Positions 10,839 through 40,172 of a stretch of 40,172 nt of DNA are shown in pieces. The notes beneath the pieces were generated by a model. The model was given only the letters and a program-made list of their open reading frames with translations, ran no database searches and had not been told where the DNA came from. The translations under genes were made by a program, and so were the position numbers. Positions within the stretch are counted from its first letter, which is position 1, and every line of letters begins with the position of its first letter. The stretch is from Granulicella sp. (GTDB taxonomy: Bacteria > Acidobacteriota > Terriglobia > Terriglobales > Acidobacteriaceae), in the NCBI GenBank assembly GCA_027365345.1, contig DAHXNO010000184.1:1-40172 (forward strand). The letters are read 5' to 3'.

Positions 10839-10951
10839 GCTTCAGTCGCCTTCAGTGCTTAGAGTCACAAAAACCGGAGTTGCAAAGCCCGCTCATCGAT
10901 CCTGCTTTACGCTTGCCTGTCCTGCCCTGCCCTACGCTTGCCGATGGGGCA

Positions 10952-11794: not shown

Positions 11795-11805
11795 CGCGTA
11801 TCTCA

Positions 11806-12347: not shown

Positions 12348-12348
<1 letters not shown>
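11806..12348 (-). CDS. actD: Alternative complex III subunit ActD (DUF3341)
   Basis: 180-residue membrane subunit. N-terminal GVYGLLAEFNTPDELVHATK and the MESYTPYPVEE motif (about residues 35-45) are typical of DUF3341. Two hydrophobic helices follow: PLVCLLGGLAGLTTGALLEIW and WPAFVVPAYECTILFSGLST. The C-terminal GATSDKFFLCLEANDPQFD corresponds to the conserved metal-lacking ferredoxin-like tail. The ATG at 12348 overlaps the actC stop by one base (TGATG), a translational coupling arrangement. Subunit D supports the membrane part of the complex in known ACIII structures; no redox centre is expected or seen. Confidence 0.93.
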
Positions 12349-13787
<1,439 letters not shown>

Positions 13788-13789
13788 CT

Positions 13790-19828: not shown

Positions 19829-19869
19829 ACCCCGCAGCATTCCGTGTAAGCCGATGAGCGACCCCCTCG

Positions 19870-19875
19870 TATACT
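19870..19875 (+). promoter_or_regulatory. Candidate -10 box before the methyltransferase gene
   Basis: tatact followed by aat lies about 27 bases before the GTG start at 19902. No good -35 hexamer is seen 16-18 bases upstream, so this is a weak call based on one hexamer in an otherwise GC-rich gap. Confidence 0.3.
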
Positions 19876-19901
19876 AATCCTGCTTTTGATTGGAGAACTC
19901 T

Positions 19902-22994: not shown

Positions 22995-23042
22995 CAGGAA
23001 GACCCTCCGCGCTGGGAATGGGGACGGTTGCGGTTTCCATCT

Positions 23043-24338: not shown

Positions 24339-24402
24339 CAGCCGGTCCGCCGGATGTGTTCCGGAGTGCCCGGCTGAGTTCGGCTAAAGGAGGAGTTGGG
24401 GC

Positions 24403-24496
24403 TCTGCTAGTCTGGAGCCACTCTCGCCTGAAGATTGGAGGTTCGGCGCTTCCGTCGCCGGGCGGGCAGCAACGAAAGATCCGGTTTGGAGGCTCT
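24403..24496 (+). promoter_or_regulatory. Leader of array copy 1
   Basis: Contains tctgctagtctg (24403-24414), an extended -10-like element (TG-n-TAGTCT), 94 bases before the TTG start. The middle of this leader differs from the others and lacks the inverted repeat of copies 2-4, but the end has the shared GGAGG four bases before TTG. Confidence 0.55.
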
Positions 24497-26359
24497 TTGC
24501 CACTCGCTCGAAGGTTCCGTCTTCCCGCTCTGTTCTGCGCCCTGGCGGTTCTGGTCTGCGAGCTGCTGAGCCGTCCCTACGCGAAGATGGGGGTGGTGGA
24601 CGACGGCCCCTACACGCTGATGGCGAGGCATTTAGCCAGTACCGGCCACATCGTGTTCAACGGGTGGGCTGCGCCTATGCTGGGTTGGCAGCTCTACCTG
24701 GGCGCAGCCTTCATCAAGCTGTTTGGATCCTCTTTTACCAGCGTGCGCATGAGCACTCTGCTGGTAGCTGTGGCGATGGCGTGGTTACTGCAGCGCACGC
24801 TGGCGCAGGCGGGCATCAACGAGCGCAACGCCACGCTGGGCACGCTGGCCTTTGTGCTCTCACCGCTTTACCTGATGCTCGCCGTGACGTATATGACGGA
24901 CATCTTCGGCCTGTTCGCCGTGGTGACCTGCCTGTATGGCTGCCTGCGCGCGCTGCAGGCAGCGACGGATCGAGCTACGATCGGCTGGCTGTGGTTCGCT
25001 GTGGGGACGAATGCGGTGTTTGGAACGGCGCGGCAGATTGCGTGGCTGGGGATTCTGGTGATGCTGCCCTCGGCCTTGTATCTGCTGGGCCTGCGCGGGC
25101 CGCTGCACAGGAGCCGACGGGTCCTTGTGTCCGGGGCTGCCGCCACGCTGGGCGGCGCGCTCTTCATCCTGGCCTGCATGCATTGGCTGGCGCGCCAGCC
25201 GTACACCCTGCCCGAGCCCCTTCTGGTTCCTCGCCTTCCGGTAGCCCACACTCTTGCTGCCCTGGCGTACCTGTTCGCGGATCTTCCATTCCTTTTGCTT
25301 CCGCTGACGGCTGTGCTGATGCTGGAGCTGCGCGGGCTGGGCGCGCTGAGCAAGGCACGGCCCGGGGTGGTCTCCCTCCTGGCGGCGTGCTCCGCTGCTT
25401 ATTTGTTGCTGGGGCTGCACTGGAGGCATCTGCATCCCAATCTGCTACTGGAACCCACCATGCGGGACTGGGTGAATGTGCATGGCATCTTCGAGGGCAG
25501 CGATCTGCAGGGCGATCCGCCGATCTTCCTGAGCCGCGCGGCGCAGATCGGGATCACCGCGGTGTGTTTTGCCGGCGGGATGGGGCTGGTGGTGTGCCTG
25601 CTACGGCCCCGTGTGGGCGCCGAGGCGGCGAGGGAGGAGATCCCCGGGACTTTGAACTCGTCGGGCTCCGAAGATTCTTTGAGTTCTGTGAACTCTTTGA
25701 GATCCTCCGCTTCTCTCCCCGCTCTTCGACCCCTGGAGGCGGCGCGTAGGTTGACGTTGGGACAGCTTGGCGTGCTGCTGCTGCCGTTTGTGCTGGCGTA
25801 TACGCTTTTGCTGGTTCCGCGCGCCGCGCTGGTGGTGATCTACGACCGATACGCGCTGGATCTGCTTCCGTTTGCCGTGGCGCTGCTGCTGCGCTGTTAC
25901 CAGCAATATGCCCGGCCCCAGCTTCCACTGCTCACCGGGGCGCTGGTGGGGGTGGTGGCGGTGTGCGGGGTGGCGATGACGCACAACAACTTTGCGTACT
26001 ATCGCGCCCGGGCGGCGCTGGCCGCCGAGCTCCGCGCCGCGGGGATCCCCGATACCCAGGTGGATAACGGGTGGGAGTATAACTCCTCGGTGGAGATTGA
26101 GAGAGCGGGTTATGTGAATGACCCGCACATCGTAACGCCGATGCACGCGTACATTCCGGTGAGTCCGCCTGCGGCGGACGCCTGCCCCATGCACGGGTAT
26201 GAGGGCTTCCGGGAGATTCATCCGCTCTATGGTGTTTCGTTTGACCCTAACGCCTGCTACGGCGAGGCTCCGTTTGCCCCGGTGCGCTACTCGCGCTGGC
26301 CCTACCGCAGCCCTGGGACGTTGTACGTAGTGAAGTACCTGCCGCCGGCGAAGGAGTGA
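24497..26359 (+). CDS. Array copy 1: GT-C/GT39-like membrane glycosyltransferase
   Basis: 620-residue polytopic protein, the longest of eight paralogues. Start TTG at 24497 (GGAGG four bases upstream), chosen because ARRFRLPALF aligns with the N-termini of the other copies although the frame stays open further up. After helix 1, the first outer loop has SRPYAKMGVVDDGPY; the DD pair (about residues 35-36) occupies the position of the catalytic acidic residues in GT39/ArnT-like GT-C enzymes. GWQLYLGAAFIKLFG and TARQIAWLGILVM are array-wide blocks. The C-terminal outer domain keeps the two cysteines (DACPM; NACYG). Odd: a Ser/Leu-rich insertion of about 33 residues near 25650-25735, absent from the other copies, accounts for its extra length. 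Confidence 0.8.
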   Translation: MPLARRFRLPALFCALAVLVCELLSRPYAKMGVVDDGPYTLMARHLASTGHIVFNGWAAPMLGWQLYLGAAFIKLFGSSFTSVRMSTLLVAVAMAWLLQRTLAQAGINERNATLGTLAFVLSPLYLMLAVTYMTDIFGLFAVVTCLYGCLRALQAATDRATIGWLWFAVGTNAVFGTARQIAWLGILVMLPSALYLLGLRGPLHRSRRVLVSGAAATLGGALFILACMHWLARQPYTLPEPLLVPRLPVAHTLAALAYLFADLPFLLLPLTAVLMLELRGLGALSKARPGVVSLLAACSAAYLLLGLHWRHLHPNLLLEPTMRDWVNVHGIFEGSDLQGDPPIFLSRAAQIGITAVCFAGGMGLVVCLLRPRVGAEAAREEIPGTLNSSGSEDSLSSVNSLRSSASLPALRPLEAARRLTLGQLGVLLLPFVLAYTLLLVPRAALVVIYDRYALDLLPFAVALLLRCYQQYARPQLPLLTGALVGVVAVCGVAMTHNNFAYYRARAALAAELRAAGIPDTQVDNGWEYNSSVEIERAGYVNDPHIVTPMHAYIPVSPPAADACPMHGYEGFREIHPLYGVSFDPNACYGEAPFAPVRYSRWPYRSPGTLYVVKYLPPAKE

Positions 26360-26372
26360 CCCGGATCCGCGC

Positions 26373-26465
26373 TCTGCTAGTCTGAATCCAGATTTTGCCT
26401 GAGGCCACGCGCTCGAACCTTGCGGAGTTCCACGAGCGCCAACGAAGACTCACGTCGGAGGCTGT
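26373..26465 (+). promoter_or_regulatory. Leader of array copy 2
   Basis: tctgctagtctg at 26373-26384, 93 bases before TTG. A possible -35 (gtgacc) lies 16 bases before the tagtct hexamer, overlapping the end of copy 1. A perfect 7-bp inverted repeat, gcgctcg (26409-26415) and cgagcgc (26433-26439), could form a stem with a 17-nt loop in the 5' leader. Confidence 0.55.
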
Positions 26466-28226
26466 TTGCAACTTATCCGCAGGTTCCGTATTCCAGCCCT
26501 GTTCTGCTCCCTGGCTGTGCTGGCGTGCGAGTTCCTGAGCCGTCCCTACGCGGAGATGGGCGTCTGCGACGACGGTCCCTACGCTTTGATGGCGCGTCAT
26601 TTGGCCAACACCGGCCATGTCGTCTACGACGGGTGGGCCACGGCCATGCTGGGCTGGCAGCTTTACGTGGGCGCAACCTTCATCAAGCTGTTTGGATACT
26701 CCCTTACCAGCGTGCGCATGAGCACTCTGCTGGTGGCTATGGCGATGGCCTGGCTGCTGCAGCGCACGCTGGCGCTGGCGGGCATCCACGAACGCAATGC
26801 GACGCTGGGCACGCTGGCCTTTGTGCTTTCTCCGCTTTATCTAACCCTGGCAGCCACGTACATGAACGACATCTTCGGCTTGTTTGCCGTGGTGATCTGC
26901 CTGTATGGCTGCCTACGCGCTCTGCAGGCAGCGACGGATCGCGCCACGATTGCATGGCTGTGCTTCGCCGTGGCGACGAACGCCGTCCTAGGCACGGCAC
27001 GCCAGATTGCCTGGCTGGGCATCCTGGTGATGGTTCCCTCCGCGCTGTATGTGCTGGGCCGGCGTGGAGCATGGCGTAAAGCGAAGGTTGTTCTGTGGGC
27101 CGGCGGCGCCGCGACGGCGGCGGGTGCGCTGTTTCTCTTCGCCTGCATGCAGTGGTTTGCGCGCCAGCCCTACTCCGTCCCCGAGCACCTGAGTTTACAC
27201 GGCGGGAGCGGGCTGAACGTTCTTGCAACGTTTTTCCATATTTTCCTGGAGTTTCCCTTTCTGCTGCTCCCGGTTCTGGTGCTGTTCGTCCCTGGGCTGC
27301 GCAAGGACCTTCGCCGTTCTGCGAGGGTGGCCGCTGTCGTCTTCGGGATCTGCGTCCTGGTTGTAGTGGTCCTTTACGTGACGCGCGGTCAGGACCGTCC
27401 TGTGCTAGAGCCAACGATGAGGGATTGGGTGACCATTTATGGTGGATTCGCCGGGGCCTGGATTGCGGGAGATCCTCCTATTTTTCTCCATGACGGCGTA
27501 CGCGTCGTGCTGACGATTGCCTCGCTGGGTGGGTTGCTTGGACTGATTGTTTCGCTTGCTTCTCCGCGCCCGATCCTGCCTGAGAGGGAGGGCGCACAAG
27601 CGCTGCCATGGGGGGAGTTGGGCACGCTTGTTGCTCCCTTCGCAGTGGCTTATGCGTTGCTGCTGATCCCGCGATCGGCCGAGACGGTCGCCCTGGTGAG
27701 CGTGCTCTACGACCGGTACCTGCTGGAGTTGTTGGTCATTGCGCTACCGTGCGTCGTCCGCTACTACCAGGAGCGAGTGCAGGCGCGGCTGCCGCCAGCC
27801 GCTGTCTGGATGGTCAGCGTCACGGCTATCTACAGCATCGTGGTGGTCCACAATATGTTTTCGTTCTATCGCGCGCGGGTGGCGCTGGCCGCTGAGATCC
27901 GCGCCGGCGGGGTGCCGGACACCTCCGTGGACAATGGCTGGGAGTACAACTTCGCGGTGGAACTTCGGCACTCCAGCCATATCAACGATCCCCGTATTGC
28001 GGTTCCGGCGAACGCCTACACGCCCGTGCCACGGGCTGCCGGGAGCCTTTGCGCCTCTGTTCTGGGGGATCGCGCCCCTGACGTCCGGCCCGTCTTCCGC
28101 GTCGCGTTCGATCCCGGCGCCTGCTACGGCCCTGCGCCGTTCGCGCCGGTGCACTACTCCCGCTGGCTGGCATCCCGGCCAGGCACGTTGTACGTGGTTC
28201 GTTCTCTGCCGCCGGTGAAGAGGTGA
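26466..28226 (+). CDS. Array copy 2: GT-C/GT39-like membrane glycosyltransferase
   Basis: 586 residues; TTG start, 106 bp after copy 1. The acidic pair is D35-D36 in MGVCDDGPYALMARHLANTG. Around 10-12 hydrophobic helices, then a C-terminal outer domain beginning near VPDTSVDNGWEYNFAVELRH. Cysteines at about 529 and 553 are shared by all copies and could form a disulphide. The segment between PYSVPEHL (about 235) and the block starting LGGLLGLIVSL (about 375) is where copies differ most; here it includes TMRDWVTIYGGF. Nucleotides 27711-27794 match copy 4 at all but two positions, unlike the flanking sequence. Probable polyprenyl-phosphate-sugar-dependent transferase; donor and acceptor unknown. 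Confidence 0.82.
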   Translation: MQLIRRFRIPALFCSLAVLACEFLSRPYAEMGVCDDGPYALMARHLANTGHVVYDGWATAMLGWQLYVGATFIKLFGYSLTSVRMSTLLVAMAMAWLLQRTLALAGIHERNATLGTLAFVLSPLYLTLAATYMNDIFGLFAVVICLYGCLRALQAATDRATIAWLCFAVATNAVLGTARQIAWLGILVMVPSALYVLGRRGAWRKAKVVLWAGGAATAAGALFLFACMQWFARQPYSVPEHLSLHGGSGLNVLATFFHIFLEFPFLLLPVLVLFVPGLRKDLRRSARVAAVVFGICVLVVVVLYVTRGQDRPVLEPTMRDWVTIYGGFAGAWIAGDPPIFLHDGVRVVLTIASLGGLLGLIVSLASPRPILPEREGAQALPWGELGTLVAPFAVAYALLLIPRSAETVALVSVLYDRYLLELLVIALPCVVRYYQERVQARLPPAAVWMVSVTAIYSIVVVHNMFSFYRARVALAAEIRAGGVPDTSVDNGWEYNFAVELRHSSHINDPRIAVPANAYTPVPRAAGSLCASVLGDRAPDVRPVFRVAFDPGACYGPAPFAPVHYSRWLASRPGTLYVVRSLPPVKR

Positions 28227-28239
28227 CCCAGATCCGCGC

Positions 28240-28331
28240 TCTGCTAGTCTGGACGGAAGCTTGCCTGAAGCTACACGCTCGACGATTGCGGAGTTCCACG
28301 AGCGCCAACGAAGACTCGCGTCGGAGGCTGT
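28240..28331 (+). promoter_or_regulatory. Leader of array copy 3
   Basis: tctgctagtctg at 28240-28251, 92 bases before TTG, with gtgacc 16 bases before the -10-like hexamer. It shares an exact ~30-nt block with leaders 2 and 4 around cggagttccacgagcgcc, including a six-pair version of the inverted repeat. Confidence 0.55.
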
Positions 28332-30084
28332 TTGCAACTGGTCCGCAGGTTCCATCTTCCAGCCCTGTTTTGCTCCATGGCTGTGCTCCTGTGCGCGCTG
28401 GCAAGCCGCCCATATGCCGACATGGGCATTGACGACGAATGCCCGTACGCTTTGATGGCGCGGCATTTAGCCAACACCGGCCATATCGCCTATAACGGAT
28501 GGGCTACAGCCATGCTGGGCTGGCAGCTTTACCTGGGCGCAGCCTTCATCAAGCTGTTTGGATACTCCTTTGCCAGCGTGCGCATGAGCACTCTGCTGGT
28601 GGCTATGGCGATGGCATGGCTGCTGCAGCGCACGCTGGCGCTGGCGGGCATCAACGAGCGCAACGCCACGCTGGGCACGCTGGGGCTGATGCTCTCTCCG
28701 TTGTTCCTGGCGCTCTCCGTGACGTATATGAGCGACATGTTTGGCCTGTTTGCGGTGGTGATGTGCGTGTACGGCTGTCTGCGCGCTTTGCAGGCAGCGA
28801 CGGAGCGAGCTACGATCGCATGGCTATGCTTCGCCGTGGCGACGAACGCGATCTTTGGCAGCGCGCGGCAGATTGCCTGGCTGGGCCTTCTGGTGATGGT
28901 TCCCTCCGCGCTGTATGTGCTGGGCTCCCGCAAGGGATGGCGTAAGAGCCGGAAGGTTCTGTGGGCGGGTGCGGCGGCTACGGCGGCGGGCGCGCTGTTT
29001 CTCTTCGCCTGTATGCAGTGGTTTGCCCGCCAGCCCTACTCCATCCCGGAGCACCTTGTGAAGCCTGGCGAGAATGGGTTTTACGCTCTTTCGCGGTTCT
29101 TCCATGCCTCCCTTGGACTGCCCTTTCTGCTGCTCCCGATTGTGATCCTCTTCCTTCCCGAGTTGGGCAGGGACCTGCGCCGCACCTTCAGGACGGGGGC
29201 ATTGGCTTCCGTAGCCTGCGGTCTGATCCTGCTGATTCTGCACGTTACGCACGCTGAGGCCAAGCCCGTGCTGGAGCCGACCATGGGGGCCTGGGGGGAT
29301 TGGATCAGCAAATATGATGTTTTCGTAGATACCGGCATGGGGGGCTCGCCGCCAATTTTTCTGGGAGTGGGGACGCGGGTGGTGCTGACGATTGCCTCTC
29401 TGGGCGGCCTGCTTGGCCTTGTCGTCTCGCTCCTGGGTCCGCGCGCTGACTTGCCCGAGACGGAGGGCCCGCGAGCGCTGTCCTGGAGGGAGCTTGGCAT
29501 CCTTCTTGCTCCCTTCACGGCCGCTTATTCTCTGCTGCTGATCCCGCGGGCCGCCACGAAGGAAGGAATCTTCGACCGGTACTTGCTTGAGTTGCTGGTG
29601 GTGATGCTGCTCTGCGTGGTGCGCTGGTACCAGGAGCGGGTTCAGGAGCGGCTGCCGCCGGCCGCAGTTGGGATGGTCTGCCTTACCGCGATCTACGGCG
29701 TCGCGTTGGTTCACAATATGTTTTCCTACAGCCGGGCACGTTTGGTGCTGGCGGCTGAGATCCGTGCCAGCGGCGTTCCAGACACCTCCGTCAACAATGG
29801 CTGGGAGTACAACTTTGCGGTGGAGCTGCGGCACTCGAGCCATCTGAACGATCCGCATATTGAGTTTCCGGCGAATGGCTATGCTCCCGTGCCTCCGCTC
29901 CCCCCCCGGTAGCTGCAATATTTATTCGAACAGCTTGACTCCGCACATTCACCCGCTGTTTGGCGTCTCCTTTGACCCCAGAGCTTGCCGTGGCGAGGCT
30001 CCGTTTGCCCCGGTGCGCTACTCGCGCTGGCTCGCGTCCCCTGGCACCTTGTACGTGGTTCGCTTTGTGCCGCCGACGAGGTAG
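28332..30084 (+). pseudogene. Array copy 3: GT-C glycosyltransferase frameshifted at a C8 tract
   Basis: Intact by alignment from TTG 28332 until about residue 523, where the frame hits a run of eight C (29900-29907) and terminates at TAG 29910-29912 after 526 residues. Removing one C restores the family C-terminus (PPLPPGSC, then TPHIHPLFGVSFDP, SRWLASPGTLYVVRF) to the stop at 30084. The lost part is the conserved C-terminal domain with both cysteines. The first loop reads MGIDDECPYALMARHL, so the usual DD pair is D-E-like here. Nothing else is degraded, which argues for a very recent mutation, a reversible phase-variable switch, or an assembly indel. Confidence 0.8.
29900..29907 (+). repeat. 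C8 homopolymer tract in array copy 3
   Basis: Eight consecutive C. Seven would keep the family reading frame; the other copies have interrupted codons at this Pro-rich position, so only copy 3 has a slippage-prone run. Confidence 0.9.
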
Positions 30085-30098
30085 CACGCAATCCGCGG

Positions 30099-30191
30099 TC
30101 TGCTACTCTGAAATCGAATCTTGCCTGAGGCCACGCGCTCGAACCTTGCGGAGTTCCACGAGCGCCAACGAAGACTCTCATCGGAGGTTGT
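30099..30191 (+). promoter_or_regulatory. Leader of array copy 4
   Basis: tctgctactctg at 30099-30110 (TG-n-TACTCT), 93 bases before TTG. The central part is almost identical to leader 2, including the complete 7-bp inverted repeat. Confidence 0.55.
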
Positions 30192-31937
30192 TTGCAACTC
30201 GTCCGCAGGTTCCGTATTCCAGCCCTGTTCTGCTCCCTGGCTGTGCTGTTTTGCGAGCTGGTGAGCCGCCCTTATGCCGGTATGGGCATCTGCGACGATT
30301 GGACCTACATCCACAGCGCGCAACGGCTCGCGGTGACCGGCCACATCCTGTACAACGGCGTGGAGACGCCGATGCTGGGCTGGCAGCTTTACCTGGGTGC
30401 TGCGTTTATCAAGCTGTTTGGCTTTTCGCTGACTGCCGTGCGCATGAGCACCCTTCTGGTGGCCGTGGCGATGGCGTGGTTGTTGCAGCGGACGCTGGCG
30501 CTGGCAGGCGTCAGCGAGCGCAATGCCACGCTGGGCACGCTGGCCCTGGTGCTCTCGCCGCTTTACCTGATGCTCTCCGTGACCTATATGACCGACATCT
30601 TCGGCCTGTTCGCGGTGGTGATTTGCCTGTACGGCTGCCTGCGCGCCCTGCGCGCTTCCACGGATCGCGCCACGATTGCATGGCTGTGCTTCGCCGTGGC
30701 GACGAACGCCGTCCTGGGCACGGCGCGCCAGATTGCCTGGCTGGGCAATCTGGTGATGGTTCCCTCCGCGCTGTATGTGCTGAGCCGGCGCGGGGCTTGG
30801 CGCAGCCGTGAGAAGGTTCTGTTCGCAGGCGGGGCGGCTGCGCTTGCCGGCGCACTGTTTCTCTTCGCCTGCATGCAGTGGTTTACGCGCCAGCCCTACT
30901 CCGTCCCAGAGCACCTGACTGTACGGGGGGGGAGCGGGCTCAATGTCCTTGCAGCGTTCTTCCATGCGGCCCTGGAAATCCCCTTTCTGCTGCTTCCGGT
31001 TGTGGCTCTTTTTCTGCCCAGGTTGCGCAAGGACCTTCACCGCGCCATCCGAGTCGCCTCTGTGGCTGCACTGGCTTGCGTCGGCCTCGTGCTGACGCTT
31101 CATCTTCTGCACGCCCAGGATCGCCCATTGTTAGAGCCAACCATGCGGAATTGGGTGAGCAGATATGACGTGTTCGAGGATGGCAGCCTGGGAGGCACGC
31201 CCCCGGTGTTTCTGGGAGTGGGGACACGTGTGGTGCTTACGGCTGCTTCTCTGGGCGGCCTGCTTGGCCTCGTCGTCTCGCTCCTGGGTCCGCCCGCGGC
31301 GGTGCCCCGGGCGGAGGGCCCGCAAACGCTGCCGTGGAGGGAGCTTGGCATCCTTCTTGCTCCCTTCGCGGCCGCCTATTCCGCGCTGCTGATCCCGCGA
31401 GCCGCCACGAGGGATGGGATCTATGACCGGTACCTGCTGGAGTTGTTGGTCATTGCGCTACCGTGCGTTGTCCGCTACTACCAGGAGCGAGTGCAGACGC
31501 GGCTGCCGCTAGCCGCTGTTCTGATGGTGTGGATCACGGCGATCTACAGCATTGCGGTGGTCCACAATATGTTTTCCTTCTATCGCGCAAGGGTGGCCCT
31601 GGCGGCTGAGGTCCGCGCCAGCGGCGTGCCCGACACAGCCGTCGATAACGGCTGGGAGTACAACTTCGCGGTCGAGCTCCGACACTCGGACCATCTGAAC
31701 GACCCCCGCGTTGAGGTTCCGGCGAATGCCTACACGCCTGTGCCGCAGGCTCCCGGCGGCCTTTGTACCACTGGCCTCTGGGACCGTACGCCGCACGTTC
31801 GCGCGGTCTATGGCGTCTCCTTCGACCCCAACGCCTGTTACGGCCCTGCTCCGTTTGCCCCGGTACATTACTCCCGGTGGCTGGCGTCCCCGGGCTCGTT
31901 GTACGTGGTCCGCTACCGGCCGCCGGGGAGGGAGTGA
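30192..31937 (+). CDS. Array copy 4: GT-C/GT39-like membrane glycosyltransferase, loop-1 variant
   Basis: 581 residues, TTG start, 107 bp after the restored end of copy 3. The first outer loop differs from most copies: MGICDDWTYIHSAQRLAVTG and YNGVETPMLG replace the GPYxLMARHLA and GWATAMLG forms; copy 8 carries a related version (AQRLAETG, NTTPMLG). Since this loop holds the presumed catalytic acids, copies 4 and 8 may have a different donor or acceptor. Mosaic: its leader and 31425-31508 match copy 2, while the stretch around 31211-31380 matches copy 3. The C-terminal domain retains both cysteines (GGLC; NACYG). Otherwise the same helix layout as copy 2. Confidence 0.82.
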   Translation: MQLVRRFRIPALFCSLAVLFCELVSRPYAGMGICDDWTYIHSAQRLAVTGHILYNGVETPMLGWQLYLGAAFIKLFGFSLTAVRMSTLLVAVAMAWLLQRTLALAGVSERNATLGTLALVLSPLYLMLSVTYMTDIFGLFAVVICLYGCLRALRASTDRATIAWLCFAVATNAVLGTARQIAWLGNLVMVPSALYVLSRRGAWRSREKVLFAGGAAALAGALFLFACMQWFTRQPYSVPEHLTVRGGSGLNVLAAFFHAALEIPFLLLPVVALFLPRLRKDLHRAIRVASVAALACVGLVLTLHLLHAQDRPLLEPTMRNWVSRYDVFEDGSLGGTPPVFLGVGTRVVLTAASLGGLLGLVVSLLGPPAAVPRAEGPQTLPWRELGILLAPFAAAYSALLIPRAATRDGIYDRYLLELLVIALPCVVRYYQERVQTRLPLAAVLMVWITAIYSIAVVHNMFSFYRARVALAAEVRASGVPDTAVDNGWEYNFAVELRHSDHLNDPRVEVPANAYTPVPQAPGGLCTTGLWDRTPHVRAVYGVSFDPNACYGPAPFAPVHYSRWLASPGSLYVVRYRPPGRE

Positions 31938-31950
31938 CGCAGATCCGCGT

Positions 31951-32041
31951 TCTGCTACTCTGAAGCCAATCTTGCCTGAATCGACACGCTCGAAGATTGC
32001 AGCGTTCCATGAGCACGGACAAAAATCGCCTCGGAGGCTCT
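31951..32041 (+). promoter_or_regulatory. Leader of array copy 5
   Basis: tctgctactctg at 31951-31962, 91 bases before TTG, with gtgacg 16 bases before tactct. The inverted repeat is reduced to GCTC/GAGC. An in-frame ATG at 32009, without a ribosome binding site, would add 11 residues if used. Confidence 0.55.
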
Positions 32042-33808
32042 TTGCAACTCGCTCGCAGGTTCCGTCTTCCAGCCCTGTTCTGCGCCCTGGCCGTTCTGCT
32101 CTGTGAGCTGATCAGCCGCCCCTACGCCGAGATGGGCATCAGTGACGACGGCCCCTACATTCTGATGGCGCGGCATCTGGCCGGCTCCGGCCATATTGCG
32201 TACGACGGCTGGGCCTCCCCCATGCTGGGCTTCCAGCTTTACCTGGGCGCGGCCTTTATCAAGCTCTTCGGCTTCTCCTTCACCACGGTACGTATGAGCA
32301 CCCTGCTGGTGGCCGTGGTGACGGCCTGGTTGTTGCAGCGCACGCTGGTCCAGGCGGGCATTCGCGAGCGCAACGCGGTGCTGGGCACGCTGGCGCTCGT
32401 TCTGTCACCGCTTTACCTGATGCTCTCGGTGACCTACTTGACGGACATCTTCGGCCTGTTTGCGGTGGTGATCTGTCTCTATGGATGCCTGCGCGCTCTG
32501 GAGGCCGCGACGGATGGCGCGGTCATCGCATGGCTGTGCTTCGCCGTGGCGACGAATGCAGTCTTTGGCACCACGCGGCAGATTGCGTGGCTGGGGATCC
32601 TGGTGATGCTGCCTTCGACGTTGTATCTGCTGGGCTGGCGTGGGGCGTGGCGCACACGGCGGCGGGTCCTGTTCGCCGGCGGGGCGGCGGCGGCGGCGGG
32701 CGCGCTGTTTATCTTCGCGTGCATGCGTTGGTTCAGCCACCAACCATACACCATGCCGGAGCATCTGATCCCGAACGCCTTTCCCGCCGCACAGACCCTC
32801 AAGAATCTCGCGCAATTCTTCCTGGATGCCCCTTTCCTGCTGCTCCCTGTTTTCGCTTTGTTCCTTCCCCGAATCTGGAGGGCCAGAGGCCGCGTTCTGG
32901 CGTTTGCGGTGGTGGCGTCCCTGGGTTACGCTCTGCTGGTGTTTTTCGCCCTTCATCGGCCCGGTTACTCCACAACCACGCTTTTGGAGCCCACCCATCG
33001 GAACTTAGGCAACTGGGTGGGGATCCACGGGATCCATGAGGGGGTCAGCCTCCAGGGCGTGCCGCCGGTTTTCCTGTACCCGTGGATGCAGGAGGTGGTG
33101 ACATTTCTTTCTCTGGGTGGGCTGCTCGGCCTGGTGGTCTGTCTGCTCTCCTCGGTCCGGCGTGGGGCGGAGGGTGCGGTATCGCCGGCAGAAGTGACCT
33201 GGCGTGAGCTCGGCATCCTGCTTGGGCCCTTCGTCGTGGTGTACACGCTGCTACTGGTTCCGCGAGCCGCGTCAAAATCTTTCGGCATCTACGACAGATA
33301 CCTGCTGGAGGTTCTGGTGGCGGCTCTGATTTTGGCGGCGCGGTTCTATCAGGAGAGAATCTCGCCGCGTCTTCCGCGCGCCATGATTCTCCTGGTCGCA
33401 ATCATGGCCGTTTACGGCATGGCCTGCACTCACAACATGTTTACGCTGTATCGAGCGCGCCTGGCGCTCGCCGACGAGGTCCGCGCCGGCGGGGTCCCCG
33501 ATACCGCGGTGGACTACGGGTTTGAGTACAACTTTGGGACTGAGCTCCGGCACGCCAACCATCTGAACGTGGACCTGATTGAGAATCCGGCCGATGCCTA
33601 CGTGCCCGCGCCTCCGCTGCCCGCCGGCTCCTGCAAGATGTTCTGGCACGACTATACGCCGCACATCCGTCCTCTCTACGGGGTCTCGTTTGACCCCAAC
33701 GCCTGCTACGGCGAGGCTTCTTTTGCTCCGATACACTACTCGCGCTGGCCCTACCGCGACCCCGGAACGCTGTACGTTGTCCGCTATCTGCCGCAGAAGA
33801 AGAGGTAA
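32042..33808 (+). CDS. Array copy 5: GT-C/GT39-like membrane glycosyltransferase
   Basis: 588 residues from TTG 32042; an upstream ATG (32009) is less likely because GGAGG fits the TTG. First loop MGISDDGPYILMARHLAGSG; GFQLYLGAAFIKLFG has Phe where all other copies have Trp. The variable middle contains THRNLGNWVGIHGIHEG. Its C-terminal domain (GSCKMFWHDYTPHIRPLYG) and stop context (ctgccgcagaagaagaggtaa) are nearly identical to those of copy 6, and its 5' end (cgctcgcaggttccgtcttc) to that of copy 7, another mosaic pattern. Most distant from copies 2-4 in the N-terminal half. Confidence 0.82.
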   Translation: MQLARRFRLPALFCALAVLLCELISRPYAEMGISDDGPYILMARHLAGSGHIAYDGWASPMLGFQLYLGAAFIKLFGFSFTTVRMSTLLVAVVTAWLLQRTLVQAGIRERNAVLGTLALVLSPLYLMLSVTYLTDIFGLFAVVICLYGCLRALEAATDGAVIAWLCFAVATNAVFGTTRQIAWLGILVMLPSTLYLLGWRGAWRTRRRVLFAGGAAAAAGALFIFACMRWFSHQPYTMPEHLIPNAFPAAQTLKNLAQFFLDAPFLLLPVFALFLPRIWRARGRVLAFAVVASLGYALLVFFALHRPGYSTTTLLEPTHRNLGNWVGIHGIHEGVSLQGVPPVFLYPWMQEVVTFLSLGGLLGLVVCLLSSVRRGAEGAVSPAEVTWRELGILLGPFVVVYTLLLVPRAASKSFGIYDRYLLEVLVAALILAARFYQERISPRLPRAMILLVAIMAVYGMACTHNMFTLYRARLALADEVRAGGVPDTAVDYGFEYNFGTELRHANHLNVDLIENPADAYVPAPPLPAGSCKMFWHDYTPHIRPLYGVSFDPNACYGEASFAPIHYSRWPYRDPGTLYVVRYLPQKKR

Positions 33809-33815
33809 CGCGCGC

Positions 33816-33906
33816 TCTGCTGCTCTGAAGCCAAACCTGACCTGAGCCTGCGCGCTCGACGCTTGCAGGATTTGACGAGTACCAACAAGATCGCATCGGA
33901 GGCTCC
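33816..33906 (+). promoter_or_regulatory. Leader of array copy 6
   Basis: tctgctgctctg at 33816-33827, 91 bases before TTG; the A of TA is replaced by G, so the -10-like hexamer is the weakest of the set. The motif starts only 7 bases after the copy 5 stop, against 11-14 bases for leaders 2-5, which removes the -35-like segment. Confidence 0.5.
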
Positions 33907-35667
33907 TTGCAACTGGTCCGCAGGTTCCGTTTTCCGGCTCTCCTTTGCGCCCTGGCCGTGCTGTTCTGTGAGCTGATTGCGCGCCCCTACGCAAACATGG
34001 GCGTCTGTGATGATGGCCCGTACATTTTGATGGCGCGGCATTTGGCGAACGCCGGCCATGTCGTCTACAACGGATGGGCCACGGCCATGCTGGGGTGGCA
34101 GCTCTATCTGGGCGCGGCGTTTATCAAGGTGTTCGGGTTTTCCTTTGCCAGCGTGCGCATGAGCACGCTGCTGGTGGCCGTAGTGATGGCGTGGCTGCTG
34201 CAGCGGACGATGGTGCTGGCGGGGGCTACGGAGCGCAATGCGACGCTGGGCACGCTGGCCTTTGTGCTCTCGCCGCTGTACCTGGCGCTTTCAGCCACCT
34301 ACATGAATGACATATTCGGCCTGTTCGCCGTGGTGGTCTGCCTGTTCGGCTGTCTGCGAGCCTTGCAGGAATCAACGGAGCGGGCTACGGTCACATGGCT
34401 GTGCTTCGCCGTGGTGACCAATGCTGTTTTTGGCACCGCCAGGCAGATTGCCTGGCTGGGCATTCTGGTGATGGTCCCCTCCGCGCTGTACGTGCTGGGC
34501 CGACGTGGGGCGTGGAGAACAGGCCGGAGGGTCCTGTGGGCGGGCGGAGTTGTTACGGCGGCCGGAGCGCTCTTCATCTTCGCCTGCATGCAGTGGTTTG
34601 CGCGCCAGCCCTACTCCATCCCCGAACACCTGGCCGTGCATGGTGGCACGGCGCTCAACCTTCTCTCCAGGTCCTTCCATGGCTTCCTGGATCTCCCCTT
34701 CCTGCTGCTCCCGATTGTGGCGCTCTTCCTTCCCGAATTGCGCAAGAGTCCTCGCCGCTCCTTCGGTGTCGGCTCCGTGGGCCTGGCGGCCTGCGCTCTG
34801 ATCCTGCTGGTCCTCCATGTGACGCGTGCTGGCGCCCGCCCCATGCTGGAGCCGGCCCTGGGGGATTGGGTCTCCAAATATGGCGGATTTGGGACCATGG
34901 TGCTTACTGGGACTCCTCCGGTCTTTCTCCACGCCGACGCTCGTTTGGTGCTCACAGCTCTCTCCCTGGGCGGGCTACTCGGCCTTATCGCCTCGCTGCT
35001 CGATCCCGGCCCGATCCGACCTGGGACGGAGGCCACGCCGCCTCTGCCGTGGAGAGATCTCGGCGTCCTGCTTGCTCCCTTCGCGGTTGCATATACGCTG
35101 CTTCTGGCCCCCCGGGCCGCCTCGTTGGTGGCGCTCGCAGGCGGGCTCTTCGATCGATACCTGCTAGAGCTGCTAGCGGTGGCGCTGCCGTGCATCGTCC
35201 GGTATTACCAGGAGCGTGTTCAGGCGCGGCTGCCGACGGTGAGTGTCCTCATGGTGGGTTTGACGGCGATGTATAGCGTTGTGACGGTCCATAACATGTT
35301 TTCGCTTTATCGCGCACGCGTGGCGCTGGCCGGCGAGTTCGTGGCCCGTGGCATTCCCGACGCCTCTGTCAATGGCGGGTGGGAGCGCAACATCCTGGTG
35401 GAGATCCGGCACTCCGGCTATGTGAACCAACCCCATATCGAGCTGCCCGCGGATGCCTACACTCCCGCGCCTCCCCTACCCGAAGGCACGTGCCCCATGT
35501 TCTGGGGCGACTATACGCCGCATATCCGGCCCATCTACGGTGTGTCGTTCGATCCCGATGCATGCTATGGCCTGGCTCCGTTTGCGCCAGTGCACTACAC
35601 CCGATGGCCGTTCCTTACGCCGGGTACGCTGTACGTTGTCCGCTATCTGCCGCAGAAGAAGAAGTAA
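33907..35667 (+). CDS. Array copy 6: GT-C/GT39-like membrane glycosyltransferase
   Basis: 586 residues, TTG start, 98 bp after copy 5. First loop ARPYANMGVCDDGPYILMARHLA is nearly that of copy 7. FIKVFG and MNDIFGLFAVVVCLFG distinguish it slightly. The middle region (PALGDWVSKYGGFG) differs from all others. In the C-terminal half VNGGWERNILVEIRHSGYVNQ departs from the DNGWEYNFAVELRH form, although the cysteines (GTC; DACYG) remain. Bases 34498-34541 are one mismatch from copy 7 over 44 nt. Confidence 0.82.
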   Translation: MQLVRRFRFPALLCALAVLFCELIARPYANMGVCDDGPYILMARHLANAGHVVYNGWATAMLGWQLYLGAAFIKVFGFSFASVRMSTLLVAVVMAWLLQRTMVLAGATERNATLGTLAFVLSPLYLALSATYMNDIFGLFAVVVCLFGCLRALQESTERATVTWLCFAVVTNAVFGTARQIAWLGILVMVPSALYVLGRRGAWRTGRRVLWAGGVVTAAGALFIFACMQWFARQPYSIPEHLAVHGGTALNLLSRSFHGFLDLPFLLLPIVALFLPELRKSPRRSFGVGSVGLAACALILLVLHVTRAGARPMLEPALGDWVSKYGGFGTMVLTGTPPVFLHADARLVLTALSLGGLLGLIASLLDPGPIRPGTEATPPLPWRDLGVLLAPFAVAYTLLLAPRAASLVALAGGLFDRYLLELLAVALPCIVRYYQERVQARLPTVSVLMVGLTAMYSVVTVHNMFSLYRARVALAGEFVARGIPDASVNGGWERNILVEIRHSGYVNQPHIELPADAYTPAPPLPEGTCPMFWGDYTPHIRPIYGVSFDPDACYGLAPFAPVHYTRWPFLTPGTLYVVRYLPQKKK

Positions 35668-35674
35668 CGCGCGC

Positions 35675-35765
35675 TCTGCTACTCTGAAGCCGAGCCTTAC
35701 CTGAGCCTGTGCGCTCGACGCTCGCAGGGTTCGACGAGTACCAAAATAATCGCCTCGGAGGCTCT
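35675..35765 (+). promoter_or_regulatory. Leader of array copy 7
   Basis: tctgctactctg at 35675-35686, 91 bases before TTG. It has the same compact junction with the preceding stop codon as leader 6 and shares gacgagtaccaa with it. Confidence 0.52.
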
Positions 35766-37514
35766 TTGCGTCTCGCTCGCAGGTTCCGTCTTCCAGCCCT
35801 GTTCTGCGCCCTGGCCGTAGTGTTCTGTGAACTGATTGCGCGCCCCTACGCCAACATGGGCATCTGTGACGACGGCCCGTACATTTTGATGGCGCGGCAT
35901 TTGGCCAACACCGGCCACATCGCTTACAACGGATGGGCCACGGCCATGCTAGGCTGGCAGCTTTATCTGGGTGCTGCGTTTATCAAGCTCTTCGGATACT
36001 CCTTTACCACGGTACGGATGAGCACCCTGCTGGTGGCTGCGGCGACGGCGTGGCTATTGCAGCGCACGCTGGTCCGCGCCAGCGTGAATGAGCGCAACGC
36101 GACGCTGGGGACGCTGGCCCTGGCGCTCTCTCCGCTGTACCTGATGCTTTCAGCCACCTACATGAATGACATCTTCGGCCTGTTCGCCGTGGTGGTCTGC
36201 CTCTACGGCTGTCTGCGAGCCTTGCAGGCATCAACGGAGCGGGCTGCGATCGCATGGCTGAGCTTCGCCGTGGCGACCAATGGTGTGCTAGGGACCGCAC
36301 GCCAGATTGCATGGCTGGGTGTTCTGGTGATGGTCCCGTCGGCGCTGTACGTGCTGGGCCAACGTGGGGCGTGGAGAACAGGCCGGAGGGTCCTGTGGGC
36401 CGGCGGGGCGGCTACGACGGCCGGAGCGGTCTTTATCTTCGCCTGCATGCAGTGGCTCAAGCGTCAGCCCTACTCGATTCCTGAACACCTTATCGTGCAA
36501 AGGGGGGGCGAATTCCGTGCAATCTCGCAGCTCTTTCACGCCTCTTGGGAGGTTCCCTTTCTTCTGCTTGCGTTGATGCTCCTCTTCCCGCCGGAGTTGC
36601 GGAGAGACGTTCGCCTGACCGTCAGGGTTGCCTTGTTGGCCTCCCTCGCCCTAGGTCTGGTTCTGGCCGTCCTGCGGCTGGGACATGGTGACATACGCCC
36701 GCTGCTGGACCCTTGTATCTGGGACTGGGTCACCAAATATGACGGATACCTGGCGCTGATGGGGCACGGGAGCCCGCCTGTGTTCCTCAACCGGGCCGCG
36801 AGGCTGGCTTTAACTATCGCCTCGGTTGGCGGGCTACTCGGCTTCCTCGTAGCTCTCGCCCGCCCGGGTGAGGGGGCGTCCGCAGGTGGCGACCGCAGCG
36901 AGCTCCCGCTGCGGCAGCTCGCCACACTTGTTGCTCCCTTCGCCATCGCCTATGCTCTGATTCTGCTTCCGCGGGGCAGTTCGCAGTACGGCATCAGTGA
37001 CCGCTATCTGTTGGAGCCATTGGCCGTTGCGCTGCCGTGGCTGGTCAGAATCTATCAGGACAAAGTTCGGACCCGAATGCCAGGGGTAGCTCTGGTGCTG
37101 GTGGCAATGACGGCGATCTACGGCATCGTAATGGTTCACAACATGTTCTCGCTATACCGCGCCCGAGTGAGGCTAGCCGCGGAGTTGCGCGCCCACGGCG
37201 TTCCAGACACTTCTGTCGATTATGGCTGGGAGTACAATCTGCTGGTCGAGTTGCGGCACTCGAATCATATCAACGATAAACACATCGAGGTGCCCGCTGA
37301 TGCGTTCGTTCCCGTTCGTCCCCTCCCCGCGGGGTCGTGCGGCGCGTGGGGCCTGGACCGCACGCCCTCCATCCGCCCAATCTACGCAGTGGCCTTCGAT
37401 CCCACACAATGCTATGGCGAGGCGCCGTTCGCGCCGGTGCACTATTCACGCTGGCTGGCGAGACCGCGAGGCACCCTGTATGTGGTCCGCTTTCTACCTC
37501 GGTCGAGGCCGTGA
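35766..37514 (+). CDS. Array copy 7: GT-C/GT39-like membrane glycosyltransferase
   Basis: 582 residues from TTG 35766; the frame is open 19 codons upstream but the N-terminus RLARRFRLPALFCALAV aligns from the TTG. First loop MGICDDGPYILMARHLANTG. The variable middle has PCIWDWVTKYDGYLALMGHG; the donor-proximal EPTMR motif of other copies is replaced by DPCIW. The C-terminal domain keeps its cysteines (GSC; TQCYG) but ends SRPRGTLYVVRFLPRSRP-like, with an extra residue in the terminal loop. Last of the seven contiguous copies; the sequence following the stop is no longer array-like. Confidence 0.82.
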   Translation: MRLARRFRLPALFCALAVVFCELIARPYANMGICDDGPYILMARHLANTGHIAYNGWATAMLGWQLYLGAAFIKLFGYSFTTVRMSTLLVAAATAWLLQRTLVRASVNERNATLGTLALALSPLYLMLSATYMNDIFGLFAVVVCLYGCLRALQASTERAAIAWLSFAVATNGVLGTARQIAWLGVLVMVPSALYVLGQRGAWRTGRRVLWAGGAATTAGAVFIFACMQWLKRQPYSIPEHLIVQRGGEFRAISQLFHASWEVPFLLLALMLLFPPELRRDVRLTVRVALLASLALGLVLAVLRLGHGDIRPLLDPCIWDWVTKYDGYLALMGHGSPPVFLNRAARLALTIASVGGLLGFLVALARPGEGASAGGDRSELPLRQLATLVAPFAIAYALILLPRGSSQYGISDRYLLEPLAVALPWLVRIYQDKVRTRMPGVALVLVAMTAIYGIVMVHNMFSLYRARVRLAAELRAHGVPDTSVDYGWEYNLLVELRHSNHINDKHIEVPADAFVPVRPLPAGSCGAWGLDRTPSIRPIYAVAFDPTQCYGEAPFAPVHYSRWLARPRGTLYVVRFLPRSRP

Positions 37515-37728
37515 TCTGGACCGGACCACAGCGGTCGCGGCAGCTCGGGCGGTCCTGCGCGGCACCCGTCCCATAGCCCAGCCTGGCTCGCTTCACGAAG
37601 CGGTGCGCGGCCCATCTCTGGCGCAGTGGTTCGGGGTGACGCATCGAGCGGAATCGAGCCTGCTTGATCGCGGTGCAGTCCCCCTGGGGCCGCCCCGTGG
37701 AGCTGCCCCGATAGCCTTAAAGGGTTGA

Positions 37729-38205
37729 AAGGATTGCGGATCGCTGTTCTGGGGGATCCGAGCGTTGCCCTTCGAGACGGCAGGCGACAGGTTTGACACC
37801 ATTGTTTACATCGATGTTCTGGAGCATATTGAGGACGATACGGGGGAGCTCTCCGGTGCGTCGCAGAGGCTTCGGCCGGGCGGGTGCCTGATTGTCCTTT
37901 CGCCCGCCCACCAGTGGCTGTACACGCCGTTTGACGCGGCCATCGGCCATTTTCGGCGGTATAGCCGGAGCTCCCTGCGGAAGGTCTCCCCGCCTGGGTT
38001 GAGGATCGAGAGAATCTTCTATCTGGATGCAGTGGGTATCGCAGCGTCCTCAGTGAATCGGCTGTTTCTGCGGCAATCGATGCCGACGGCGGAGCAGTTG
38101 CAGATGTGGGATCGCTGGATGATTCCTGTTTCCAGGTTCGTGGACCCGATGTTGATGCAGAGGTTGGGGAAGTCAATTGTCGGCGTCTGGCGCAAGCCGC
38201 TGTAA
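37729..38205 (+). pseudogene. SAM-dependent methyltransferase, N-terminal half missing
   Basis: The frame is open from 37729 after a TGA, with TTG at 37765 as the only early start. It begins in the middle of a methyltransferase: RFDTIVYIDVLEHIEDD is motif post-II/IV, RLRPGGCLIVLSPAHQWLYT is motif III, and AIGHFRRYSR is a common following block of type 11/12 enzymes. The SAM-binding glycine loop (motif I) and roughly 80-100 residues are absent, and nothing resembling them is found in 37515-37728. It was probably truncated by the rearrangement that placed it behind array copy 7. The C-terminus overlaps the convergent GT2 gene by 33 bp. Confidence 0.7.
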
Positions 38206-39182
38206 GAGAGTCGGAAGCCGATGGCCGAACAAGAGCCGGCGATCGCGAATATAGGGCAGACAGTCCAGCCTGGGTAGCACGAGACGCTGCACCCTGCTGT
38301 TGAGCAACATCAGGATCGACGAGAGCGCGGTGAAGAGGACTTGCAAGATGATGATGGTGAGTCCAAAGGCGATGGTGGTGGTCCAGCCGGGGGTGGCGTG
38401 GCTGGGGGAGAAGATGCGTACGGCAAGCAGTCCGCTAACAAGCACCACGCTTGCGATGGTGAGAAGGACAGAGAGGGTGAGGAGCCTGACAAAGATGGTG
38501 TCAGCGTATACCGAGATCCCGCTGAGGCCATGGACGATGAGGGAGGTGAAGTTCATTTTGGACCTGCCGGCATAGCGGCGCCCGCGGTGAATGGGTACAT
38601 AGTTGAGCGGAAGCCGAGAGCGCAGGATGGCCGCGGGCAGGTTGTTCCACAGGTCAGAGATCATGACGAGGCGATCGACGTAGCTACGAGAGATCAGGCA
38701 GAAATTTCCGAAGCTGATGGCGTGGCCGGTAGCTAGCTTGAAGAACCCTTTGTAGAGCAGATAGAACAGTTTGAAGGAGGCCGTCTCCAGCCGCTTGGCT
38801 CGTTGAGCGACGACGCAGAAGTCTTTGCGCTCCGCTGTGCCCTGGATGAGTTCCGCAATCGCGTGGGGGGGGCCTCACCATCGGCATCCATGATGAGGAC
38901 GGCATCGAAGTCGTGATCCTGCGCGGCGGCGCAGAGTCCGATGGCAATGGCGCGCTGGTGACCGACGTTGACGGCTAGCGAAACGACCTCCGCTCCGACG
39001 ATGTGCTGGAGCCCGGCCAACTGGCCGGCAACGAGTGAGACGGCCTCCTCGGAGCCGTCGTCGATGGCGCTCACGAAGATCTGCAGCGGCAACGAGGCGG
39101 CGACCTTGTCGAGTTCCCGCAGGAGCATTGCGAAGGACGTCCAGTCGTTATAGACCGGGGTGATCAAGCGGAGCTGGTTCAC
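38173..39182 (-). pseudogene. GtrB-like GT2 polyprenyl-phosphate glycosyltransferase, frameshifted at a C8 tract
   Basis: About 336 codons from GTG 39182 (AGGAAATC upstream) to a stop at 38173. LRLITPVYNDW is the N-terminal GT2 strand, VSAIDDGSEE and VLIMDADGE carry the nucleotide-sugar and DxD aspartates, and two C-terminal helices (LLTLSVLLTIASVVLVSGLL; TIAFGLTIIILQVLFTALS) anchor it as in GtrB/dolichol-phosphate-glucose synthase-like enzymes. Right after DADGE a run of eight C on the coding strand (38865-38872) shifts the frame; nine C (or six) would join it to PHAIAELIQG, then CVVAQRAKRLETASFKLFY. The intact form would make a polyprenyl-phosphate sugar, the donor class used by GT-C enzymes such as the flanking array. 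It could be an assembly indel, decay or phase variation. Confidence 0.78.
38865..38872 (-). repeat. C8 homopolymer tract (coding strand) in the GT2 gene
   Basis: Eight G on the plus strand, eight C in the coding sense, immediately after the DADGE motif codons. One additional C restores the family frame. Confidence 0.9.
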
Positions 39183-39229
39183 GATGATTTCCTGACCGGT
39201 GAGATGTTGTTGCCGCTGCGGTTCGCGTA

Positions 39230-39235
39230 TTTATA
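39230..39235 (-). promoter_or_regulatory. Candidate -10 box for the GT2 gene
   Basis: TATAAA on the minus strand, about 48 bases before the GTG start, in the only AT-rich patch of the 39183-39411 gap. No consensus -35 was found 16-18 bases further upstream. The remainder of that gap shows no gene. Confidence 0.35.
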
Positions 39236-39411
39236 AGGATGGTAAGGGATGGAAGGGCGCTGGGGCTTCGGCCGAGCGTGGAGCGCAGAACTACAGCCGA
39301 TGTGCGGTTTGACGGGGCCAGCGTCCGCGGCGGACGGCGGTGAGTGGCGTTTCAGGCAAGGGCGGGCATCCCGTTGTGAAGGATTGGGGACAGTATAGCC
39401 GGTGGCTGTGG

Positions 39412-39504
39412 TCTGGTACTCTGAGGCAATCCTTGCCGCTGAGGTCGCACTCCTGCATTTGGAATGCGGGAAGGACGCAGTGAAGAACCCAATCCGGAGG
39501 CGCG
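39412..39504 (+). promoter_or_regulatory. Leader of array copy 8
   Basis: tctggtactctg at 39412-39423 (TG-n-TACTCT preserved), 93 bases before TTG. The middle has diverged and lacks the inverted repeat, but the GGAGG-N4-TTG ending is retained. Confidence 0.5.
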
Positions 39505-40172
39505 TTGCAACTGGTTCGCAGGTTCCGTCTTCAAGCTGTATTCTGCGCCGCGGCGGTGCTGCTATGCGCGCTGCTGAGCCATCCGTTCGCCGAGACGGGC
39601 ATCGCGGACGACGGGCTTTACATCCGCATTGCGCAGCGGCTGGCAGAGACGGGCCATCTGGTCTACAACGGCAACACCACGCCGATGCTGGGCTGGCAGC
39701 TTTACCTGGGCGCGGCCTTTATCAAGGTGTTTGGCTTTGGCTTTACCACGGCGCGCATGAGCGCCTTGCTGGTGGCCACGGTGACGGCCGGGCTGCTGCA
39801 GCGCGCGCTGGCGCTGGCCGGGCTGAGCGAGGGCAACGCGACGGTGTGCACCCTGGCCGTGGCAGCTTCCCCGCTGTACCTACAGCTCTCCGTGACCTAT
39901 ATGAGCGACATGTTCGGGCTGTTTGCCATGGTGGTGTGTCTGTACGGCTGCCTGCGCGCCCTGCAGGCTGCCACGGACGGCGCCGTGATCGGATGGTTAT
40001 GGTTCGCCGTGGTGACGAATGCCCTGTTTGGAACGGCGCGGCAGATCGCCTGGCTGGGGCTGCTGGTGATGGTCCCTTCCACGCTGTATCTGTTGGGTCG
40101 ATGCAGGACGGCGGAGCAGAGACGGCGCGTGCTGCGGGCCGGTTTGATGGCCAATGTGGCCGGAGGGCTGTT
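39505..40172 (+). CDS. Array copy 8: GT-C/GT39-like membrane glycosyltransferase (cut by window edge)
   Basis: The first 222 codons of an eighth paralogue, open to the right edge. TTG start with the common GGAGG-N4 spacing. The N-terminus QLVRRFRLQAVFC matches the array. The first outer loop is the variant type (ETGIADDGLYIRIAQRLAETG; NTTPMLGWQLYLG), closest to copy 4. RQIAWLGLLVMVPSTLYLLG aligns with the other copies at about residues 180-199. It is separated from copy 7 by 1.99 kb containing the truncated methyltransferase and GT2 gene. The most divergent copy in leader and N-terminal helices. Whether more copies follow outside the window is unknown. Confidence 0.8.
   Translation, partial: MQLVRRFRLQAVFCAAAVLLCALLSHPFAETGIADDGLYIRIAQRLAETGHLVYNGNTTPMLGWQLYLGAAFIKVFGFGFTTARMSALLVATVTAGLLQRALALAGLSEGNATVCTLAVAASPLYLQLSVTYMSDMFGLFAMVVCLYGCLRALQAATDGAVIGWLWFAVVTNALFGTARQIAWLGLLVMVPSTLYLLGRCRTAEQRRRVLRAGLMANVAGGL

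Follow-up and report, generated by a model that had tools for sequence, protein, structure and literature searches.

Tandem paralogues of a putative GT-C glycosyltransferase at a chromosomal site of variable copy number in Granulicella and its relatives

Analysis of a 40,172-nucleotide stretch of Granulicella sp. DNA (hereafter the window; contig C208 of the 208 contigs that make up the draft genome, G000) revealed eight same-strand copies of one polytopic protein family of about 585 amino acids, running from position 24497 to the contig end. Within the genus, the array fills a single chromosomal site, from an endonuclease III-like gene to a GH57 gene, with a copy number that varies between species; array mates are alike at synonymous sites over the 5' 40% of the gene and diverge in the middle, and in the window each copy has its own conserved promoter-like leader, all of these being new observations. 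Taken together, they are probably best explained by a duplicated and partly gene-converted tandem repertoire of extracytoplasmic glycosyltransferases of the GT-C class.

The copies, denoted g1 to g8, start exactly at the TTG codons given in the initial annotation (24497, 26466, 28332, 30192, 32042, 33907, 35766 and 39505), each preceded by a GGAGG ribosome-binding site, and full-length protein identity between them is 53-75%. Six are intact (g1, 24497..26359, 620 amino acids from its TTG; g2, 26466..28226; g4, 30192..31937; g5, 32042..33808; g6, 33907..35667; g7, 35766..37514; window features lie on the + strand unless stated otherwise). Of the other two, g3 (28332..29912) changes frame at or beside a run of eight C at 29900-29907, its C-terminal remainder lying in a different frame at 29881..30081, and g8 (39505..40172) is truncated by the contig end after 222 codons. 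The regular spacing described in the same annotation holds for most of the array: the first six start-to-start distances (1969, 1866, 1860, 1850, 1865 and 1859) fall in the reported range of 1850-1969, but the last, from g7 to g8, is 3739; likewise, most intergenic gaps measure 98-106 bp (98-107 bp had been given), but that between g3 and g4 is 279 bp, owing to the frameshift in g3, and that between g7 and g8 is 1990 bp. The latter contains the remnant of an S-adenosylmethionine methyltransferase gene (37775..38205, ends approximate; relative at L062:9643-10350) and a frameshifted gene for an ArnC-like GT2 polyprenyl-phosphate sugar synthase (matched stretch 38179..39317, - strand; frameshift at or beside a run of eight G at 38865-38872), and it is 83% identical to a stretch of genome G023 that is also placed between two family copies. 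An arylsulfotransferase-like gene lies between family copies in G023 as well (L062:10550-12766), so that sulfation may accompany the glycosylation locus. Outside the window, the same genome carries one family gene on contig C69 and another split across contigs C126 and C8, the ends of which share an exact 141-base overlap, bringing the family genes known in this genome to ten.

With g2 as the query at a threshold of 1e-30, family matches were found in 15 of 61 genomes; these 15 all belong to the window's genus, represented by 28 genomes, and none of the 33 genomes from other genera matched. A scan of named genomes yielded 27 loci, which bore the labels Granulicella, Edaphobacter, Acidobacteriaceae or Acidobacteria. 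The endonuclease III-like (HhH-GPD) gene that forms the conserved left border of the site (19076..19828 in the window) was found in all 28 genomes of the genus and the GH57/DUF3536 gene of the right border in 27, with both on one contig in 18. Homologous arrays were looked for between these borders in related genomes and found, the copy number there being 0, 1 or 4: no family copy was detected at 1e-30 in 15 of the 18 genomes (gaps of about 140-4993 bases), G021 has one copy, and G001 (Granulicella sp. L46, the record of which carries no label as a metagenome-assembled genome) and G019 have four each. Ten genomes do not have both borders on one contig; in seven of these (G000, G003, G007, G010, G012, G023 and G026) the GH57 match is preceded at 82-147 bases by the end of a family copy, despite the contig breaks, and in G011, G016 and G020 no copy ends beside that match. 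By synteny, the site in the window's own genome would hold at least nine copies if C69 closes the window array. Many genomes have additional copies away from the site, and in the fetched loci we located 83 copies or pieces (63 intact, 10 truncated at a contig end, 10 broken or partial), a tally in which some genes were entered as two pieces and G013:C29:10450 was called broken only through a hit merged with its neighbour. A search of phage and plasmid records with g4 returned no relative at 1e-5, and spread by phages or plasmids was rejected on this ground.

Most copies are preceded, about 90 nt before the start, by TGCTA(C/T)(T/C)CTGAA or a close variant, followed by GGAGG and usually TTG. 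The motif resembles the consensus of an extended -10 element, which points to separately transcribed copies. In the window, a pattern derived from these same sites matches eight times with at most one mismatch, once per copy, against 0.72 matches expected (24405..24416, 26375..26386, 28242..28253, 30101..30112, 31953..31964 and 35677..35688 before g1 to g5 and g7, and, with one mismatch each, 33818..33829 and 39414..39425 before g6 and g8). Across all genomes, TGNTANNYT stands 50-115 nt upstream of 50 of the 66 copies with enough upstream DNA. A stricter form, TGCTAYYCTGAA, has four sites in the window's genome: three lie within the array, and the fourth directly precedes the GH57 gene of C69. 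The genus as a whole has 55 occurrences of this form and 25 of its reversed control, and by coordinate comparison 21 of the 55 sites precede family or GH57 genes. On C69 of G000, at what is presumably the far border of the array, only a few bases separate the motif (at L082:10477-10500) from the ATG of the GH57/DUF3536 gene, which suggests that the transcript is leaderless and that the promoters of this gene and of the array copies have a common origin. A scan for two-hexamer sigma-70 promoters returned a single site, on the - strand, where 2.7 would be expected, and the likeness of the conserved motif is to an extended -10 element alone. The leaders had no Rfam match at E<=1. A conserved RNA hairpin in the leader is not claimed: RNAalifold, applied to 27 chosen leaders, gave four pairs at -2.04 kcal/mol, none of them changed on both sides.

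Profile comparisons support the earlier assignment of the family to the GT-C class and suggest an enzyme of the PMT_2/ArnT type. The Pfam family PMT_2 (PF13231) matches 42 of 49 members (E<=0.01), five of seven window places reach its cut-off in a six-frame genome search, and the family profile aligns with a profile of five other PMT_2 proteins from the same genome at an hhalign probability of 95% (E 3.4e-8). One of these five ArnT-like proteins matches the ArnT structure 5ezm (3.3e-16); against that protein alone, the family profile reaches an hhalign probability of 42%. The nearly invariant pair D35-D36 is aligned with an Asp-Glu motif (D44-E45 of the ArnT-like protein L131). Hydropathy gives 14 hydrophobic segments and suggests that 13 of them span the membrane, which would put the Asp pair into the first loop on the outer side and leave a C-terminal tail of about 124 residues outside; ArnT itself has about 13 transmembrane helices and an outer C-terminal part.

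Conservation is uneven along the protein: residues 1-230 are well conserved and residues 240-450 poorly, mean pairwise identity in 20-residue blocks of the middle ranging from 23 to 60% among the 41 closer members. Fourfold-site and nearest-neighbour comparisons were made on 55 of the 83 located copies, selected for having a matched start together with 540 or more codons of open frame. The excess of fourfold-site identity above composition in the N-terminal, middle and C-terminal parts was 0.31, 0.15 and 0.22 for pairs on the same contig (n=51), 0.15, 0.14 and 0.12 for pairs on different contigs of one genome (n=106) and 0.11, 0.07 and 0.10 for pairs between genomes (n=1328). When binned, the excess reaches its low point over codons 281-320 and recovers in the 3' direction, and the amount by which the difference between the N-terminal part and the rest surpasses its between-genome value is 0.016-0.087 (95%, bootstrap by contig). 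Synonymous divergence (dS) is also uneven along single pairs, for instance 0.38, 1.36 and 0.90 in the three parts of g6-g7, and run tests on the 21 window pairs detected long identical tracts in g2-g4, g6-g7, g1-g3 and g5-g7 (p<0.005, uncorrected). The 5' likeness and the identical tracts fit conversion or unequal crossing-over acting on the leader and the 5' part. In all 12 chosen close pairs, the ratio of nonsynonymous to synonymous divergence (omega, Nei-Gojobori) is 0.10-0.43, indicative of purifying selection and hence of genes that are kept. The nearest neighbour comes from the same genome for 16 of the 55 copies in the N-terminal part and for 12 in the C-terminal part, which amounts to weak clustering by genome, and it differs between these two parts in 38 of the 55.

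A comparison with G026, a sister species, suggests that parts of the locus have also moved between species. Contig C392 of this genome (L135) is 83% identical to the window at the DNA level over 9487-18374 and 97% from 18998 to 20018, where the contig ends; because the step in identity, between 18374 and 18998, lies inside one contig, a chimeric contig or misbinning is a less likely source of it. Two further G026 contigs (C123, L066; C254, L136) match the array region of the window, at 94.6-96.4% over 22109-25200 and at 93% over 37781-39560, and at the far border the identity of the GH57 protein is back to 83-84%. From the endonuclease gene onward and into the array, the locus thus looks recently exchanged between the two lineages, as after horizontal exchange, which is likewise a new observation. 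The other G026 copies located are at most 70% identical to g2, so that either the stacks are not alike throughout or G026, at 88%, is incomplete. The expanded, recombining repertoire envisaged in the initial annotation is accordingly supported by the differences in copy number at the site, the synonymous likeness of the 5' part, the mosaic dS and the exchange with G026.

The presumed sugar donor is suggested by GT2 genes associated with the family. In G005, G015, G018 and G024, a GT2 gene lies directly upstream of a distant GT-C member on the same strand, with 54-93 bases between the two matches. The four GT2 proteins match the NCBIfam ArnC model below its cut-off, and among structures in the Protein Data Bank (PDB) that of G024 matches ArnC (5.3e-17), sll0501, known as a GtrB (6.1e-12), and dolichol-phosphate-mannose synthase (3.5e-8). 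A GT2 relative lies between family copies in the loci of G000 and G023, and a GT2 gene without a GT-C match beside it occupies the chromosomal site in G004 (C134:2507-3511) and G013 (C45:45038-46039), perhaps as the relic of an ancestral GT2-GT-C pair. At 1e-20, 8 of the 15 genomes with the family gave a GT2 match, as did 1 of the 13 genomes of the genus without a family match.

Elsewhere in the window, two putative polytopic proteins are encoded on the - strand between the endonuclease gene and g1, one GT87-like (21441..22994; E 0.1) and one PMT_2-like (23043..24338; E 0.019), both with matches under the cut-off. Farther to the left, at 12348-18525, NrfD, Fe-S and multihaem cytochrome genes, which presumably correspond to an alternative complex III operon, are also found left of the site in relatives.

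Several observations weigh against a converted repertoire of GT-C enzymes that share a donor. When the eight window copies are searched one protein at a time, g1 and g7 alone reach the PMT_2 cut-off (26.1 bits), and a sequence search of the PDB found no chain matching the GT-C family itself. The motif TGNTANNYT is missing from 16 of the 66 leaders, the 5' excess is not above the between-genome value in 5 of 14 contigs, two of which fall below zero, and codon-level positive selection was not seen by the Nei-Gojobori method in the 12 chosen close pairs. The initial annotation's connection of the array with a GT2 polyprenyl-phosphate sugar synthase stands as far as the adjoining genes in the four relatives go, but the window's own GT2 copy is frameshifted and no GT2 match was obtained at 1e-20 in seven of the 15 family-bearing genomes (G001, G003, G007, G010, G012, G019 and G021), where another synthase would have to serve. 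Finally, no GtrA-type flippase was detected among the neighbours scanned, a selected set, and such a gene may lie elsewhere.

Three other explanations were considered. That a single gene was repeated through misassembly might be suspected from the window stopping inside g8 and from the placement of further copies of its own genome at contig ends. However, the copies are just 53-75% identical in protein, and in other genomes of the Granulicella type the family also forms tandem rows with spacings of about 100 bp, four copies sitting on a single contig both in Granulicella sp. L46 (L084) and in G019 (L061), so that the array is no assembly artefact; we consider this explanation exceedingly improbable and reject it for the tandem arrangement. 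Plain dosage amplification, in which many copies of one activity drift apart without gaining new specificities, would agree with a single family under a common leader, with the conserved N-terminal half and with purifying selection in all three regions of the 12 close pairs. Yet array mates differ at 25-47% of residues and the blocks of the middle retain only 23-60% identity, far too much divergence for a recent dosage amplification, and despite this divergence 63 of the 83 located copies or pieces are intact, with 10 broken or partial; amplification of this kind therefore appears distinctly unlikely.

The third alternative is a contingency locus, variable by phase or recombination, in which slippage at G/C runs or reshuffling by conversion changes the cell surface under pressure from phages or predators. 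Runs of seven or eight G or C occur in g3 (29900-29907), g4 (30925-30932), g7 (36502-36508) and the GT2 gene (38865-38872). Both broken frames of the array region, those of g3 and GT2, shift at or beside a run of eight, the in-frame run of eight G in g4 and that of seven in g7 lie at nearly the same codon, dS differs between the three parts of single pairs in a mosaic-like manner, and the locus looks exchanged between species. Conversely, G/C runs of at least eight are not clearly enriched (2 in 129,600 bases of the family against 4 in 455,841 flanking bases), the 12 close pairs bear no codon-level positive selection, and in a single assembly slipped-strand switching and slips in the reads or the assembly, either of which could possibly account for the broken frames, are not separable. 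We regard such a locus as rather unlikely, and a role against phages or predators as a guess. The diversification against phages or hosts raised in the initial annotation would likewise be conjecture, the 12 chosen pairs showing purifying selection.

Under the preferred reading of a converted tandem repertoire, each enzyme would probably work at the outer face of the cytoplasmic membrane, transferring a sugar from a polyprenyl-phosphate carrier to a glycan, lipid or protein of the cell surface. New copies may arise by unequal crossing-over between leaders and 5' halves, gene conversion would keep the catalytic, donor-binding N-terminal half alike, and the diverging middle (codons ~240-450) may confer different acceptor or linkage specificities, so that the array enzymes would share the type of polyprenyl-phosphate donor and differ in acceptor or linkage. 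This chemistry is proposed by analogy with the ArnC-ArnT and Gtr systems (PMC11127046 and PMC3688519). A fuller version, which we put forward tentatively as possible rather than probable, is a chromosomal cassette array: a lineage-restricted GT-C gene would multiply at one fixed site as units of promoter, leader and TTG-started gene, conversion of the leader and N-terminal half would fix donor use, and the middle would diverge freely, giving a stack of acceptor or linkage specificities with parts swapped between species and with G/C runs possibly acting as switches.

Among known systems, ArnT/ArnC, which transfers 4-amino-4-deoxy-L-arabinose to lipid A, resembles the array family in combining a GT-C enzyme that has an Asp-acidic motif after the first transmembrane helix with a GT2 partner, the partner of the array family being nearest to ArnC in both NCBIfam and the PDB. 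By contrast, the NCBIfam ArnT model is not among the families listed for the 49 members (E<=0.01), and the array has many paralogues in a row. The GtrA/GtrB/GtrC systems of O-antigen modification in Salmonella and Shigella (PMC3688519 and PMC11127046) are comparable in pairing a polyprenyl-phosphate sugar synthase, seen directly upstream of the GT-C gene in four relatives here, with a polytopic GT-C enzyme in which diversity is concentrated; according to PMC3688519, Salmonella generally has 1-4 gtr operons, these lie in phage-associated regions, and two example GtrC families are less than 18% identical. The array differs in comprising one family at 53-75% identity, in tandem at a chromosomal site, with no phage or plasmid match to g4 at 1e-5. 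The three-component systems with GT136 and pentofuranose transfer share with it the extracytoplasmic transfer by a GT-C enzyme from a polyprenyl-phosphate donor that is presumed for the array, and some of them hold several candidate GT-Cs, the meaning of which is left open (PMC11127046); compared by description, they differ from eight copies of one family in one region with a leader on each. Literature searches aimed at such a GT-C array found no description of one; the accessible part of a paper on gene duplication in Solibacter reports glycosyl transferase family 2 paralogues and no GT-C array.

In known polyprenyl-phosphate-dependent systems such as gtr, the diversity of GT-C enzymes is spread over separate, often phage-borne operons, whereas in these soil acidobacteria it is gathered at a single location on the chromosome. 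This location is clearly bordered, its copy number runs from zero to at least eight, and there is a hint that it has been exchanged between species. It would lend itself, as a natural experiment, to studying the evolution of acceptor specificity among duplicated glycosyltransferases, and surface glycans of Acidobacteriota not yet known might be sought there.

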